A model generated the notes under the pieces. It worked only from the letters and a program-made list of their open reading frames with translations. It made no database searches and was not told the origin of the DNA. From positions 1-38,394 of IMG/VR virus record IMGVR_UViG_3300046780_000429: a stretch of DNA of 38,394 nucleotides. One strand, written 5' to 3'. The position numbers and the translations under genes were made by a program. Origin of the DNA: a virus. Positions 278 through 30,591 of this stretch are shown in pieces; position 1 is the first letter of the stretch; each line of letters starts with the position of its first letter.

Positions 278-478
278 ATGTTATTAAAGACACTTGAGGA
301 ACACAATAATCGCGCACTAGAGGCGCACACCTTATTACAAGTGGGAAGTAATAATGGGATTGAATGTCCAAATTGTAAATGCGAATTATTTGACAGCCAA
401 CATCTTGTATTGTTGAGTAATCCACCTAGGTATAAGATATTTTATAAAAACTGTGATTATACTGGAGAGAGATACTAA
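278..478 (+). CDS. Small zinc-ribbon-like protein, diverged duplicate
   Basis: A 66-residue paralogue of the gene at 88. The first knuckle is kept (CPNC, with one more Cys), but in the second knuckle the first Cys is replaced by Tyr (YKNC), so metal binding may be weakened. The start at 278 follows a GGAGA site; the ATG at 251 lies inside the previous gene. Its stop overlaps the ATG of the next gene by one base. Confidence 0.72.
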   Translation: MLLKTLEEHNNRALEAHTLLQVGSNNGIECPNCKCELFDSQHLVLLSNPPRYKIFYKNCDYTGERY

Positions 479-993
479 TGCCGCTAAGTAAAGAAGAGTT
501 GGAGGAAATACAAAAATTAGTCGAAGATGGTGAATTCAAAGCAGATGGCTATGGATTTATGGTTATAACATGCGCTGAATTAGATGAAATTCTTGCGAGA
601 TTTTTAGATAAAAGCATATCCAAAGATACCGAGCCTAAGCCGGTAGTTACAGATACCAATAAACTATTACCATGTCCGTTTTGTAACGGTAATCCAGCGG
701 TATTTGATAATGGATCTATTCCAGGTTGGACATATATAAAATGCAATCAGTGTGGGATTAAAGGCAACTATTGTCGCGATAGTAAGAGAGCTATAGAAGA
801 ATGGAACACGCGCGTAACGCCTAAGGTTAGTGTGGAACAAGTGAAGGGAATGATTCAGGAAAAAATAGAAGTTAATAAGGATATTATTAGAGGATGCCCT
901 TATCAACTTAAAGATACAATGGATTTATTCGAGGCTTGCAGAATAGAATTAGAAGGTGTGCTCAAAGAAATCAGCGAGGCAGAGAATGTTTAA
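478..993 (+). CDS. Lar-like restriction alleviation protein with C-terminal extension
   Basis: 171 residues. The central part matches the Lar family: LLPCPFCNGNPAVF at about 63-76 with Cys66 and Cys69, a second pair Cys89/Cys92, then the typical end AIEEWNTR near residue 112. Lar of the Rac prophage lowers type I restriction of unmodified DNA by promoting modification, so this is a candidate anti-restriction factor for the incoming genome. Known Lar proteins are short single zinc-ribbon proteins. Here about 60 N-terminal and 55 C-terminal residues flank the ribbon and have no role I can assign. The family call is firm; function in this host is inferred. Confidence 0.75.
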   Translation: MPLSKEELEEIQKLVEDGEFKADGYGFMVITCAELDEILARFLDKSISKDTEPKPVVTDTNKLLPCPFCNGNPAVFDNGSIPGWTYIKCNQCGIKGNYCRDSKRAIEEWNTRVTPKVSVEQVKGMIQEKIEVNKDIIRGCPYQLKDTMDLFEACRIELEGVLKEISEAENV

Positions 994-5542: not shown

Positions 5543-7821
5543 ATAATACAGCCTACGTCAATAATTCAGAAATCCACGATCGCGAAGTTGAAACATTCCC
5601 CGAAGATACGCTTGAAAAATTAGAAGATGAGCGGGTTAAAAAACTAGAAGATGCGGGCATCGATGAAACTTCGGTATTAAATGAAGCGCTTAAGTGCATT
5701 GCTGATTCAGATGCGAATTTTAGTGATAACAATTTACGTGGTAAGGAAGATGCGGAATTTTTATTCAGATCGCAATGGCGTGATGATGAAAGGGCAGATT
5801 TTAAGCGTAATTTTAAGCCAGCGCTTCAATTTAATAAACTACGTGATATTCACCGTAAGATTATTGGCGAGCAACGTAATAATACGCCTGCATTAAAAGT
5901 AAGGTCATTGACGGGTAATGCAGACCAACAAGCGCTTGATTTGCGCACCGATTTAGTAAAAACCATATCGTATCAATCTCGTAATAACATTGTTTATCAA
6001 ACGGCATTTGATTCTGCATTATCTAAAGGTTATGGCGCATTTCAGATAATGACAGATTATGAATCTGCAAAAAGCTCTAAGCAGATTATTAAATTTGATC
6101 GTATTGTTGACCCCTTTACCTGTGGTTTTGATCCGTCGGCAATGGAACCCACCAAGTTTGATGGTAATTATTGTTATCGACGATTAACAATGACAAAACA
6201 GCAATTTGACGCTACTTATCCTCAAATTGAATTTCCCGTTTCATTCCCTGATCCCAATTGTGTCGTTGAATTTCAATGGCAGACCGAAGATACCATTACC
6301 GTATGTGATTATTACGTCAAAGAATGGCGCAGCATTATGGTATATGAAATGGATAATGGGGAAGGAGTTGATAAGGAAGATTATGATAAGCTGAAATCTT
6401 TGCGCGATAAGGCATTAAAACATGTTATGGGGGCTCATCCTGATGATGAAATGAGAGCGCAAGCTTTGGCTGATTCTATATTGCCTCCATTGCCTGAAAT
6501 TATCTCTGAAAGACAGTCTCAAGACTATAAAATAATGCACTATCGCTTGATTTTAGGGAAAATCATTGAATTTTCAGAATGGCCAAGTAAATACTTGCCT
6601 ATTATTTTTGTAGATGGCGATTCTTATTGGCTAGAAGGTAAGCAATATACGCGCTCATTTATTGCTGACGCTAAAGATGCACAACGCTTTGTTAATTATA
6701 TCGGGAGTGAGGCAGCAGGGCAGATAAAGAACATGACGCGCGGCCAGTATGTCGCTACACCCAAACAAGTTATAGGGCATGAGGATTTATGGCGTAATCC
6801 AGAAGTACAGGTAGGCGCATTAGTCGCTAATCCTGATCCTTTGGTGCCTGGTTCATTGCCGCGTAAAGACCCACCCAGTGAAATACCGCAATCCCTTTTG
6901 TTACATTTTCAACGCGCAACAAATGACATTAAAGAAATTGTTGGTTTTTACGATGAAAACATCGGTGCTGCTGGCGCTACGCAAAAGGACTTGTCCGGTA
7001 AGGCCGTACAAAGCCTACAATTACGTGGCGCTGCCGGTACATTCGTTTATTTTGATAATTTGGATAGGGCGATTGAGCAAAGTGGTCGTGTAGTACTTGA
7101 TTTGCTTCCTAAGATTTATGATACCGAACGAAAAGTAGTGTTAAATGCGATTGATGGTACACCGCGTAACTTAGTGTTGAATCAACAAATGGAAGATGGG
7201 AGTACGCAAAATTCGTTATTAGATGATGGTGATTATGATATTGAGATAGATACAGCGCCATCTTATGCCGTTCAAAAAGAGCAATCATTACAGATTATGA
7301 CATCCTTTGTTGCTGCATACCCTGCGGCATTCCCGTTAATTGCTGATTTAATGGCTCAAAACTGTGATTTAAATAACTTGCAACAATTTGTAAGCAGACT
7401 TCAAACACTCGTGCCGCCAGATATTATTGCTAAAGAGAAAGGTCAGCCACCACCGCCTCCTAAACCTAATCCGCAAGAACAAATGATGAAAATGCAAATG
7501 CAATTAGCAGAAGCGAAGCTTGAGGAACAAAAACAAGAAACAATGGTACGCCAGCAAAAGAATGTATTGGAAGATAAGAAGCATAGATTATCAGAGCTAC
7601 AAATGATGTTAGATGCTAAGGCATTGCAAGATAAGATGCTATCTGATAAACAAAAAGATGCGACAGAAAATCATAAAGCCGAGCTTGATTATACCGCTGC
7701 TATGGCGCGTTTAATGCATGATATTCGCTCGGAAATAAACACGCATTCACGCGAAACTACCAAAATTACGGTAAGTAATAAGGGTCGTCAATCAAAAGGT
7801 AGAAACGCACTGAACGGGTAA
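5539..7821 (+). CDS. Portal protein, P22 family
   Basis: 760 residues, close to the 725 of P22 gp1. It forms the dodecameric ring at one head vertex through which DNA enters and leaves. Typical features are the ATQKDLSGKAVQSLQLRGA stretch near 480-500, and a long C-terminal helical tail (about 640-745) rich in Gln, Met and Lys, matching the barrel of P22-type portals. A proline run (QPPPPPKP) sits at the hinge. It is coupled to terminase by an ATGA overlap. Its last 56 bases overlap the antisense resolvase gene. Confidence 0.93.
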   Translation: MNNTAYVNNSEIHDREVETFPEDTLEKLEDERVKKLEDAGIDETSVLNEALKCIADSDANFSDNNLRGKEDAEFLFRSQWRDDERADFKRNFKPALQFNKLRDIHRKIIGEQRNNTPALKVRSLTGNADQQALDLRTDLVKTISYQSRNNIVYQTAFDSALSKGYGAFQIMTDYESAKSSKQIIKFDRIVDPFTCGFDPSAMEPTKFDGNYCYRRLTMTKQQFDATYPQIEFPVSFPDPNCVVEFQWQTEDTITVCDYYVKEWRSIMVYEMDNGEGVDKEDYDKLKSLRDKALKHVMGAHPDDEMRAQALADSILPPLPEIISERQSQDYKIMHYRLILGKIIEFSEWPSKYLPIIFVDGDSYWLEGKQYTRSFIADAKDAQRFVNYIGSEAAGQIKNMTRGQYVATPKQVIGHEDLWRNPEVQVGALVANPDPLVPGSLPRKDPPSEIPQSLLLHFQRATNDIKEIVGFYDENIGAAGATQKDLSGKAVQSLQLRGAAGTFVYFDNLDRAIEQSGRVVLDLLPKIYDTERKVVLNAIDGTPRNLVLNQQMEDGSTQNSLLDDGDYDIEIDTAPSYAVQKEQSLQIMTSFVAAYPAAFPLIADLMAQNCDLNNLQQFVSRLQTLVPPDIIAKEKGQPPPPPKPNPQEQMMKMQMQLAEAKLEEQKQETMVRQQKNVLEDKKHRLSELQMMLDAKALQDKMLSDKQKDATENHKAELDYTAAMARLMHDIRSEINTHSRETTKITVSNKGRQSKGRNALNG

Positions 7822-25344: not shown

Positions 25345-25926
25345 TTATATGTGTTTCCAGGTAATTCTTCTTTTCGCAGCCCAAATAGTGCGAAAACAGA
25401 CATTATATTTTTTTGCAAGATTGGCGATCTTTAATTTACTTTCTCTAATTACTAAAATCTGTTCAGCATTTAATTTTGCGCTTGAATTATTTTCACCTCT
25501 TCGGGCGATAGACATAAGATATTTTGCATGTGAATTATGTTTTTTACCATACCATGGATTTTTATTTCCTGTCATTCCGTATAAGCGATGATTTTTACCG
25601 CTTGGTATTCTTCCTTTATTTGCCATATCAGCCATATTTATCGCGTGAACCGCCAAAAATAAATGATCTGGATTAACGCACGATGGATTATCACATTTAT
25701 GGCACACACATAAACCATCATGGATATATCCATGTTTTAACATCCACGAAAAACGATGAGCCATTATTTTTTTTGAATTAACGCGAATTCGCGCGTATCC
25801 TCTTTTTGTTAAGATACCACCCCACTTCATGCAATCATTTTTATCTGGTGGCAATATAACGGAATAGAATTTATCAATCCTATTTTGATTAACTTCTTTA
25901 TTGTTGATCATTATTTTTAGTTTCAT
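25345..25926 (-). CDS. HNH endonuclease (homing-type)
   Basis: 193 residues. The HNH core is [18 protein letters not shown] at about 74-91, with structural Cys75, Cys78 and Cys83 and catalytic-type His/Asn residues. Upstream AHRFSW is typical, and the C-terminal 45 residues form a helix-turn-helix ([18 protein letters not shown]) for target recognition. It is a free-standing selfish or recombination-promoting endonuclease. Start 25926 or 25911; either overlaps the end of csrA. No interrupted host gene is visible beside it. Confidence 0.88.
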
Positions 25927-26098
25927 TGGCTGCTTTCTCTTCTTGTATCTTTAAATATATCTCTTGGCGATGTACACCTATAGACTTTGGTGCATCAATA
26001 CCTATTCTGACTTGATGTCCTTTAATACCTAAAACTGTAATAGTTATGTCATCACCTATCACTAATCGCTCCGAGATTCTCCTGCTTAAAATTAACAT
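25898..26098 (-). CDS. csrA: CsrA, RNA-binding translational regulator
   Basis: 66 residues, full length for CsrA (61 in E. coli). It forms a domain-swapped dimer that binds GGA in mRNA leaders and blocks or stabilises translation. RNA-contact residues Leu4, Arg6, Val42, Arg44 and Glu46 are present, and [16 protein letters not shown] and [10 protein letters not shown] match the core. An AGGAG site lies before the start. A phage copy could redirect the host's carbon, motility or virulence programme or tune phage mRNAs. The C-terminal tail differs from host types. Confidence 0.94.
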
Positions 26099-26132
26099 AT
26101 ATCCATTCTCCTTTGTTAAGCTAAGTTTAGTA

Positions 26133-26210
26133 GGGCATAGGATGGAATCGAACCACCAACGGCCTGTATCTGTGGGAGATACCTGGACTCTACCATTGAG
26201 TTACTATGCC
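26133..26210 (-). tRNA. tRNA-like gene, isotype uncertain
   Basis: Read on the minus strand: acceptor GGCATAG pairs with CTATGCC (7 of 7), bases 8-9 are TA, the D arm is ACTC-AATGGTA-GAGT, and the T arm is GGTGG-TTCGATT-CCATC. An extra G-C pair can form at each end (26211 with 26133). The best anticodon arm is GTATC-TCCCACA-GATAC, which puts CCA in the anticodon with a C at position 33 and a C at 37. The central region has 28 bases where about 22 are normal. No CCA end is encoded. It may be an active odd tRNA, a degenerate one or a mimic. Confidence 0.6.
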
Positions 26211-26279
26211 CATATTGCCACCGTTTTAAGGGCATATGGTGGCGATGTGACGTTGCGGACTGTAAGCGCACCCTCAAAC

Positions 26280-29128: not shown

Positions 29129-29150
29129 TTTGTACGAAATATCGTACAAA
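29129..29150. promoter_or_regulatory. Perfect palindrome before exported-protein gene (operator)
   Basis: Arms TTTGTACGA (29129-29137) and TCGTACAAA (29142-29150) around AATA. It lies 24 bases before ATG 29175 and overlaps a possible -10 (TATATT, 29125-29130). It is too short-looped and lacks a U run for a terminator, so a dimeric repressor or activator site is the best reading. Confidence 0.7.
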
Positions 29151-29174
29151 ACATTAACCTTAAGAGGATGGATT

Positions 29175-29597
29175 ATGAAATGTATTAAATTGACTTTTAT
29201 AGCTATTTTATCGATGTTTTTTATGGGATTAGCGCAAGCTGATGGTGTGACACCTAGTGCTAAAGTTTTAATTAATCTGCCAAGCTGGGGCGATGAAGTT
29301 CAGATGGTAAATGACTGCCTAACAAGAGGAATCCCCAATAGTTCAACTTTTCTACCCTCTTTTGAAGCGGTTTCATGCTATCACCCAGGACAACAAAAAG
29401 GTTCCTATTATTTTGTACTGGGTGTGGGGCAACAGCCATTTCATTCATCTTTCTTAATTACAGTTCTAGGAGATAACACTATTTCTTGTAGTCAAACATT
29501 AAGTGGAAAAGCATGCTCAAAATATTTTCAGCAAATAGATCGCTATACGCTTAACTGGTATAATGTTGACGCAGAGGCAAAATCACAAAGCCGCTAG
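29175..29597 (+). CDS. Exported protein in the immunity region
   Basis: 140 residues from ATG 29175 (AAGAGG upstream; the frame can be extended to 29130 but that start lacks a site and lies in the palindrome). Signal peptide with cleavage near AQA|DGV (residue 22). The mature part has four Cys (NDC, VSC, ISC, KAC), so two disulfides are possible in the periplasm. It stands alone between the repressor and the early promoter, with its own operator, as lysogenic-conversion or superinfection-exclusion genes often do. No family recognised. Its end overlaps the repressor's by 15 bases. Confidence 0.75.
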   Translation: MKCIKLTFIAILSMFFMGLAQADGVTPSAKVLINLPSWGDEVQMVNDCLTRGIPNSSTFLPSFEAVSCYHPGQQKGSYYFVLGVGQQPFHSSFLITVLGDNTISCSQTLSGKACSKYFQQIDRYTLNWYNVDAEAKSQSR

Positions 29598-29906
29598 ATG
29601 GCCGATAATAACCCCGACTATCTTAACAGAATCATCCATAGTGATTTTCTGATAGTCGGAGTTTAATGCTCGCAAGAACTTGTCACGTCCATCTACGATA
29701 TATTGTCTAAATACCGCCTCGGGATTTCCGTTGACAAAAGCCAAGACATAATTAGTTGACTTACATTCACGCAATGGATCGACGATAATAATATCGCCGA
29801 TTAAAAAGGTTTTTTTACCGCTTGAATTATTGGTCATGGCATCAGTAATTAAACGTACGCCATAAGATTTTTCACTTCCGTCAACGGGCATTGAGAGATA
29901 TTCCAT
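29583..29906 (-). CDS. S24/LexA-like C-terminal half of a split CI repressor
   Basis: 107 residues collinear with the dimerisation/autoprotease domain of CI repressors: YGVRLITDAMTNN aligns with the GxSMT active-site segment, then GDIIIVDP, then FRQYIVDGRDKFLRALN. The catalytic Ser is Ala (Ala23) and the catalytic Lys position is Arg/Gln (Arg67-Gln68), so self-cleavage should be impossible. It is in the same frame as the upstream helix-turn-helix half; TAA AAT lies between. GAGG stands 8 bases before its ATG, so separate translation is possible. Confidence 0.82.
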   Translation of the reverse strand: MEYLSMPVDGSEKSYGVRLITDAMTNNSSGKKTFLIGDIIIVDPLRECKSTNYVLAFVNGNPEAVFRQYIVDGRDKFLRALNSDYQKITMDDSVKIVGVIIGHLAAL

Positions 29907-29909
29907 ATT

Positions 29910-30233
29910 TTAGTCCTCAGTTTGATTTTTAATGTCCTCCCACGCGATGAGAGGGATTTTTGTACAACTTCCCGCATATTGCAAAGTTTTAGAAAATGGC
30001 GAAAATCCTTTTCCTGTATCTAACCATACTGGGTCACAATCCAGCGCCTTAGAAAAAGTAATAATAAGCCTGGTCGAGCCACTACGCCCTTGCTCAATAT
30101 AAGATATCGCATTTTGAGTAACGCCTACTAAACCGGCTAGTTCATCCTGCGAAAACTTTCTAAACTCCCTGATCGCCCGAAGGCGACCGGCCAAAGTTTC
30201 TAAGTTATTATCATTTTCTTTCTTTGCTGACAT
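29910..30233 (-). CDS. cI: HTH N-terminal half of a split CI repressor
   Basis: 107 residues from ATG 30233 (AGGGG upstream; the longer frame lacks this). A helix-turn-helix of the XRE/CI type lies at about 27-50 (FSQDELAGLVGVTQNAISYIEQ). It ends IPLIAWEDIKNQTED, the stretch that in full CI repressors leads to the Ala-Gly cleavage site, and stops there at TAA (29910-29912). With the following S24-like frame it would make about 216 residues, the length of P22 C2. It is divergent from cro. Alone it may bind operators weakly. Confidence 0.85.
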   Translation of the reverse strand: MSAKKENDNNLETLAGRLRAIREFRKFSQDELAGLVGVTQNAISYIEQGRSGSTRLIITFSKALDCDPVWLDTGKGFSPFSKTLQYAGSCTKIPLIAWEDIKNQTED

Positions 30234-30255
30234 AATATCCCCTTTTATTTTTAAA

Positions 30256-30303
30256 AAAACAAAACAAACTTCGGTTGACAGTAAAACAAAACACTTGTAT
30301 TGT
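30256..30303 (+). promoter_or_regulatory. Rightward promoter PR for cro with repeated AAAACAAAACA
   Basis: -35 TTGACA (30275-30280), a 17-base spacer, -10 TATTGT (30298-30303). AAAACAAAACA occurs at 30256-30266 and again at 30283-30293, one copy each side of the -35 box, so these may be operator half-sites. Transcription would start about 30310, the A of the cro ATG. Confidence 0.72.
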
Positions 30304-30309
30304 TGAGCT

Positions 30310-30591
30310 ATGACTACTAGATTTGAATTGCAAGCGGAAAACAACCGCATCAAGAAAAAATACGCCAAACAATTGCATAAAGCCGCTTTGCGCGTCATGG
30401 ATTTGTTTGGTGGATGCCCTCAAATGGTTAAAGCGCTTAATGCGGTTGGTGATAAAGTTTATCAACAAATTGTTTGGCAGTGGGTAATGCGTCACAAATG
30501 TATTCCTGAAAAACATATAAGATTTATAGTCAAAGCACTTAAAGGACAAATAACAGCGGAAGAAATACGCCCCGACTTATTTGACTTTTAA
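30310..30591 (+). CDS. Cro-like repressor (YdaS-type HTH)
   Basis: 93 residues. ALRVMDLFGGCPQMVKALNAVG, then QQIVWQWVMRHKCIPEKHIRFI, ending ITAEEIRPDLF, is the pattern of phage Cro/YdaS helix-turn-helix proteins. It lies divergent from the CI-like gene, as in lambdoid immunity regions, and should repress early promoters. There is no Shine-Dalgarno site: the -10 box ends only 6 bases before the ATG, so the mRNA is probably leaderless. Confidence 0.82.
   Translation: MTTRFELQAENNRIKKKYAKQLHKAALRVMDLFGGCPQMVKALNAVGDKVYQQIVWQWVMRHKCIPEKHIRFIVKALKGQITAEEIRPDLFDF

Follow-up and report, generated by a model that had tools for sequence, protein, structure and literature searches.

A CI-like repressor region of a P22-like phage divided by an in-frame stop, with an S24 half lacking its catalytic residues

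Layout of the immunity locus

The analysed stretch (hereafter the window) comprises the 38,394 bases of virus record IMG/VR IMGVR_UViG_3300046780_000429, with a G+C content of ~37%; its portal, coat and scaffold mark it as a P22-like phage. Its repressor region consists of two ORFs in one frame, with only TAA and AAT between them (Table 1), as the preliminary description had claimed; readthrough would give 216 residues. The first ORF matches HTH_3 (36.4 bits, E = 5.3e-9; cut-off 23) and the second Peptidase_S24 (PF00717; 38.7 bits, E = 8.8e-10; cut-off 23.3), both in Pfam. Because it is divergent from a Cro-like gene, the pair occupies the CI position of P22 and lambda.

Table 1 Features of the repressor region (window coordinates)
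Feature	Position	Strand	Length or basis
HTH half: DNA-binding domain of Cro/CI type, linker and retained IPLIAW strand, ending in TAA	29910–30233	−	107 aa
S24 half: fold of the lambda CI C-terminal domain, catalytic residues absent	29583–29906	−	107 aa; ATG 29906–29904
Cro-like divergent gene	30310–30591	+	phrog_35 transcriptional repressor, E = 3.9e-8
Repressor–cro intergenic region, presumed operator region	30234–30309		position only
In-frame TAA parting the halves, then AAT	29910–29912	−	sequence
GAGG Shine–Dalgarno site, 8 nt before the second ATG	29915–29918	−	sequence and duplex energy
Two GAGGAC copies 21 nt apart, imperfect linker repeat around the stop	29913–29939	−	read directly
Ile101–Lys102 codons at the Ala-Gly self-cleavage position	29928–29933	−	alignment to P22 C2, ungapped from the PLI motif
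Ala codon at the catalytic Ser position (S24-half residue 23; DAM for DSM)	29838–29840	−	alignment
Arg codon at the catalytic Lys position (S24-half residue 67; AVFRQ for ATFKQ)	29706–29708	−	alignment

The locus shares with P22 C2 and lambda CI its domains, their order, the place opposite a Cro-like gene, the joined length and the folds of the parts. Of the hallmarks of an autocleaving S24 repressor, it has the N-terminal Cro/CI-type HTH, the C-terminal S24 fold and the divergent cro; it lacks the single polypeptide, having two ORFs instead, as well as the Ser-Lys dyad and the Ala-Gly site. The repressor–cro intergenic region contains a promoter-like site (TTGACA-17-TATTGT, 30275–30303 (+)), and such sites are no more numerous there than expected by chance; no operator repeats stood out in this region. 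A search of the window found no tyrosine integrase. Directly behind the repressor pair lies a convergent ORF (29130–29597 (+)) with a signal-peptide-like start, and a similar convergent ORF (5593–6042) follows the repressor of a related locus, L217 (below).

An S24 half without its active site

We compared the window with 36 dereplicated S24 repressors. The four self-cleavage columns are near invariant in this reference (Ala 0.97, Gly 0.97, Ser 0.97, Lys 1.0) and are occupied in the window by Ile, Lys, Ala and Arg. The assignment of Ile and Lys to the Ala-Gly columns comes from the ungapped alignment on the PLI motif; MAFFT places a gap there. Two residues neighbouring the active site have changed as well (Gly to Thr, Thr to Val). 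The alanine in place of the catalytic serine and the missing Ala-Gly pair had both been read correctly in the preliminary description; its 'Arg/Gln' for the lysine holds for Arg only. The S24 half retains 18/29 of the conserved non-catalytic columns and 0/4 of the catalytic ones (one-sided P ~0.03, calculated by hand), and therefore the active site is lost and the fold is kept. With Ser, Lys and Ala-Gly all absent, RecA-driven self-cleavage should be impossible, in support of the earlier suggestion that the repressor is non-inducible.

An AlphaFold2 model of the S24 half alone is confident (pLDDT 92.9) and superimposes on the lambda CI C-terminal domain (1kca) with Z 17.2 and 1.3 Å over 97 residues. 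It also matches the lambda CI domain in the RecA filament (8gmu, Z 14.8) and, below the lambda CI C-terminal domain, UmuD' (Z 14.2). UmuD' is likewise a stand-alone S24 fold, similar to the cleaved product, but is itself generated by cleavage and functions in DNA polymerase V. The sequence matches agree that the window half is not closest to UmuD: the UmuD-like family phrog_811 (3.6e-6) is weaker than phrog_8558 (7.4e-21) and the repressor family phrog_4 (2.7e-15). We considered phrog_8558 as a family of stand-alone S24 proteins and rejected it, as it matches the S24 domain of 23/23 sequences tried.

The stop, the second start and the fit of the halves

The stop sits six codons downstream of the former cleavage bond, which bears out the earlier placement of the break in the linker, near the point of CI self-cleavage. 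The GAGG site before the second ATG, also noted earlier, is of ordinary strength: its anti-Shine–Dalgarno pairing energy is −5.8 kcal/mol, against medians of −5.9 kcal/mol for 69 starts of this genome and −2.45 kcal/mol for internal ATGs. In-frame internal ATGs with a comparable site occur at 0.0033 per codon judged by energy and 0.0011 judged by motif. The chance of finding one within three codons of a random stop is thus small (P ~0.01 by energy, 0.003 by motif), rising to 0.03 and 0.01, respectively, within nine codons. The strength of this start and its rarity behind a stop therefore favour an independent, coupled second cistron. The imperfect 21-nt linker repeat around the stop (GAGGACATTAAAAAT / GAGGACTAAAAT; GAGGAC copies at 29939–29934 and 29918–29913) may be the origin of both stop and start, although this is a guess.

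In a model of the read-through protein, the PLI strand (residues 92–96, pLDDT ~89) lies on the HTH side of the break, yet forms part of the S24 domain. The break itself falls within the loop 101–110, the least certain part of that domain (pLDDT ~72). A short strand (111–114) is present in the read-through model and missing from that of the S24 half alone. That it is seen only together with the PLI strand suggests that the tail of the first cistron completes the sheet of the second. CI N-terminal fragments can retain considerable DNA binding by themselves (PMC10584840), and by this analogy the HTH half alone might also act as a repressor.

Relatives and readings of the repressor pair

S24 matches in phages and plasmids reach at most 38.5% identity, and the best in IMG/VR are 31–38% identical. 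The first 17 phage loci read are all unbroken, as are 79 of the best 80 IMG/VR matches, which keep Ser, Lys and Ala-Gly. The exception among these 80 is a prophage repressor (L100, 2553–3312 (+)) with a deletion and a frameshift just after Ala-Gly; it has a normal active site and no proper second start, and reads as plain decay, a contrast case to the window. The preliminary description had proposed looking for homologues with the same split; none of the ~130 other S24 loci examined has it. A later scan with 135 S24 hits (including L001 and L020, which are the window itself) gave no further split repressor, and searching viral_contigs for exact peptides of the read-through protein returned no relative. 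We found no report of a split CI in the literature searched, which is weak evidence of absence. Several candidates were set aside: the single genome-collection match (L002) lies opposite a 1187-aa gene and is a chance hit, and the short S24 genes of ECP1 and YMC11/07/P54 are annotation effects, their frames extending upstream through the HTH.

Dead S24 domains also occur in unbroken repressors. At least two, L369 and L400, share the GDAM motif (for GDSM) with the window, but are single 245-residue frames that keep Lys; L318 (1804–2568 (−)) is an unbroken 255-residue frame whose S24 domain lacks both Ser and Lys. A dead site alone therefore does not require two genes.

Closer relatives were reached through the Sak4 gene, 2 kb from the window repressor. 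Portal comparison gave the relative G003 (44%), and alignment of its Sak4 with that of the window gave 80 loci. Among 50 of the longer Sak4-sharing records, only two have an S24 domain (L217 in phage G056 and L222 in G060), in repressors at the same locus upstream of Sak4. Unlike the window, each is one chain (208 and 217 aa, respectively) with Ser kept, but Ala-Gly is replaced by Ile-Lys in L217, as in the window, and by Ile-Ser in L222, and the catalytic Lys by Ile and Arg, respectively. HTH-only genes stand at this locus in L164 (G003), L186 and L200. Because the unbroken L217 and L222 already lack Ala-Gly and Lys, self-cleavage was probably lost before the split arose, which is also the simplest order. 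An S24 tree groups the two with the window (support 65/90) on long branches, that of the window measuring 1.23; it neither contradicts nor shows this order, nor does it settle whether cleavage was lost once in a shared ancestor. G056 carries a tyrosine integrase, which suggests that this temperate relative lives with a non-cleavable repressor, and that a temperate lifestyle in this group is compatible with such a repressor.

Our best reading, which we hold tentatively and from a single example at close to an even chance, is that the window pair forms an SOS-insensitive repressor from two coupled cistrons. In this P22-like phage the immunity repressor would have been recast so that, on one mRNA, the HTH half is made first and the ribosome halts at the TAA, to restart at the ATG 3 nt on by way of the GAGG site; the site and its rarity are observed, its use predicted. 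The S24 half, a dead peptidase, would serve as a dimerization module only. The halves would join by strand complementation through the HTH-tail strand and act like one uncleavable CI, and exit from lysogeny would need another route, for example an antirepressor or the loss of one half. The window gave no antirepressor and no E. coli-type LexA box beyond chance, the latter judged by an E. coli consensus that may not be the host's. The fuller version is a naturally split CI of two separately translated subunits, in which the HTH half brings the first strand, the dead S24 half completes the fold and dimerizes, RecA cannot inactivate the complex, and the balance between the halves or their stability can set induction; this we consider possible but rather unlikely. 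For the two-cistron repressor speak the ordinary-strength start, improbable by chance just behind a stop (P 0.003–0.01), the open, in-frame and confidently folded S24 half with its match to the lambda CI C-terminal domain, the PLI strand retained on the HTH half and the non-cleavable repressors L217 and L222 at the same locus, the former in a phage with an integrase. Against it stand the lack of any relative with the same split, the dead S24 domains of unbroken repressors and the failure to find an integrase in the window, which leaves lysogeny putative. The two subunits envisaged earlier thus gain from the start site, the intact fold and the IPLIAW strand, but not from the homologues.

The main rival, which we judge somewhat doubtful but plausible, is a nonsense change that arose recently in a repressor already unable to cleave itself: the HTH half would work alone or lysogeny would be in the course of being lost, the S24 half would be a relic, and the lineage would be moving to an HTH-only form. 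The HTH-only genes of L164/G003, L186 and L200 fit such a course, as do the DNA binding of CI N-terminal fragments (PMC10584840), the missing integrase and the long S24 branch of the window, and the intact appearance of the second frame is what a stop of recent origin would produce. Chance is, however, unlikely to place a start of ordinary strength directly after the stop, and the sole decayed repressor seen, L100, broke by deletion and frameshift and has no proper second start. Of the decay proposed in the preliminary description only this recent form keeps some weight; older decay of the S24 half is disfavoured because its frame has no stops or frameshift and its structural residues are kept. 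A different use of the second ORF, which we hold very unlikely, would make the S24 half a separate protein with its own job, for example occupying RecA filaments or pairing with other S24 repressors, and leave repression to the HTH half alone. The half does fold alone like UmuD' and the lambda CI domain in the RecA filament, with the active site lost and the fold kept, but no stand-alone relative was found and the matching strand kept on the HTH half suits joining better. A stop codon created by misassembly or a sequencing error is highly improbable: the window is a single record and no second copy was found, but only a substitution could account for the stop, as the reading frame does not change across it, and an error would offer no explanation for the start site. 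Stop readthrough, also raised earlier, would yield a full-length 216-residue repressor besides the short form. The shared frame, the alignment of the joined protein with P22 C2 along its length and the match of its model to the lambda repressor would suit it, yet we regard it as extremely unlikely. A TAA with A as the next base is not known to be leaky, there is no RNA structure beyond chance around the stop (z 0.12), the only tRNA found in the window is a tRNA-Trp and no suppressor, and a separate start site is present. The large structural genes of the window are unbroken under table 11.

Two phage systems offer partial parallels to the two-cistron repressor. The tum gene of phages PSP3 and Fels-2 is split by a stop codon (PMC3121763), so a phage regulator parted by a stop into two neighbouring ORFs has precedent; Tum, however, is joined to DinI and is an antirepressor rather than a repressor. 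The Gifsy GfoR/GtgR-type repressors are non-cleavable HTH proteins without an S24 domain that answer to a LexA-controlled antirepressor (PMC3121763). They resemble the HTH half in lacking self-cleavage; the window differs in its S24 ORF 3 nt downstream and in that no antirepressor was found.

If both halves are made and cooperate, the pair would represent, in naturally split form, the genetic switch protein that has been studied best, and would separate dimerization from both DNA binding and the SOS response. The locus bears on the route from autocleaving to non-cleavable or HTH-only repressors: within one phage group it holds repressors with cleavage lost in one chain (L217, L222), a split one (the window) and HTH-only ones (L164, L186, L200).

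Other genes of the window were recorded in passing. Positions 478–993 (+) match Lar, a restriction alleviation protein, at 45.5 bits (cut-off 28.6), and 25345–25926 (−) encode an HNH endonuclease of homing type. The tRNA-Trp (CCA; 26132–26211 (−)) is absent from G003 and G056 when searched. Near Sak4 lies a 66-aa CsrA-like protein, identified by eye (25898–26098 (−)), with matches in L152 (76% identical) and L248 (46%); phage-borne CsrA is kept within this phage group.
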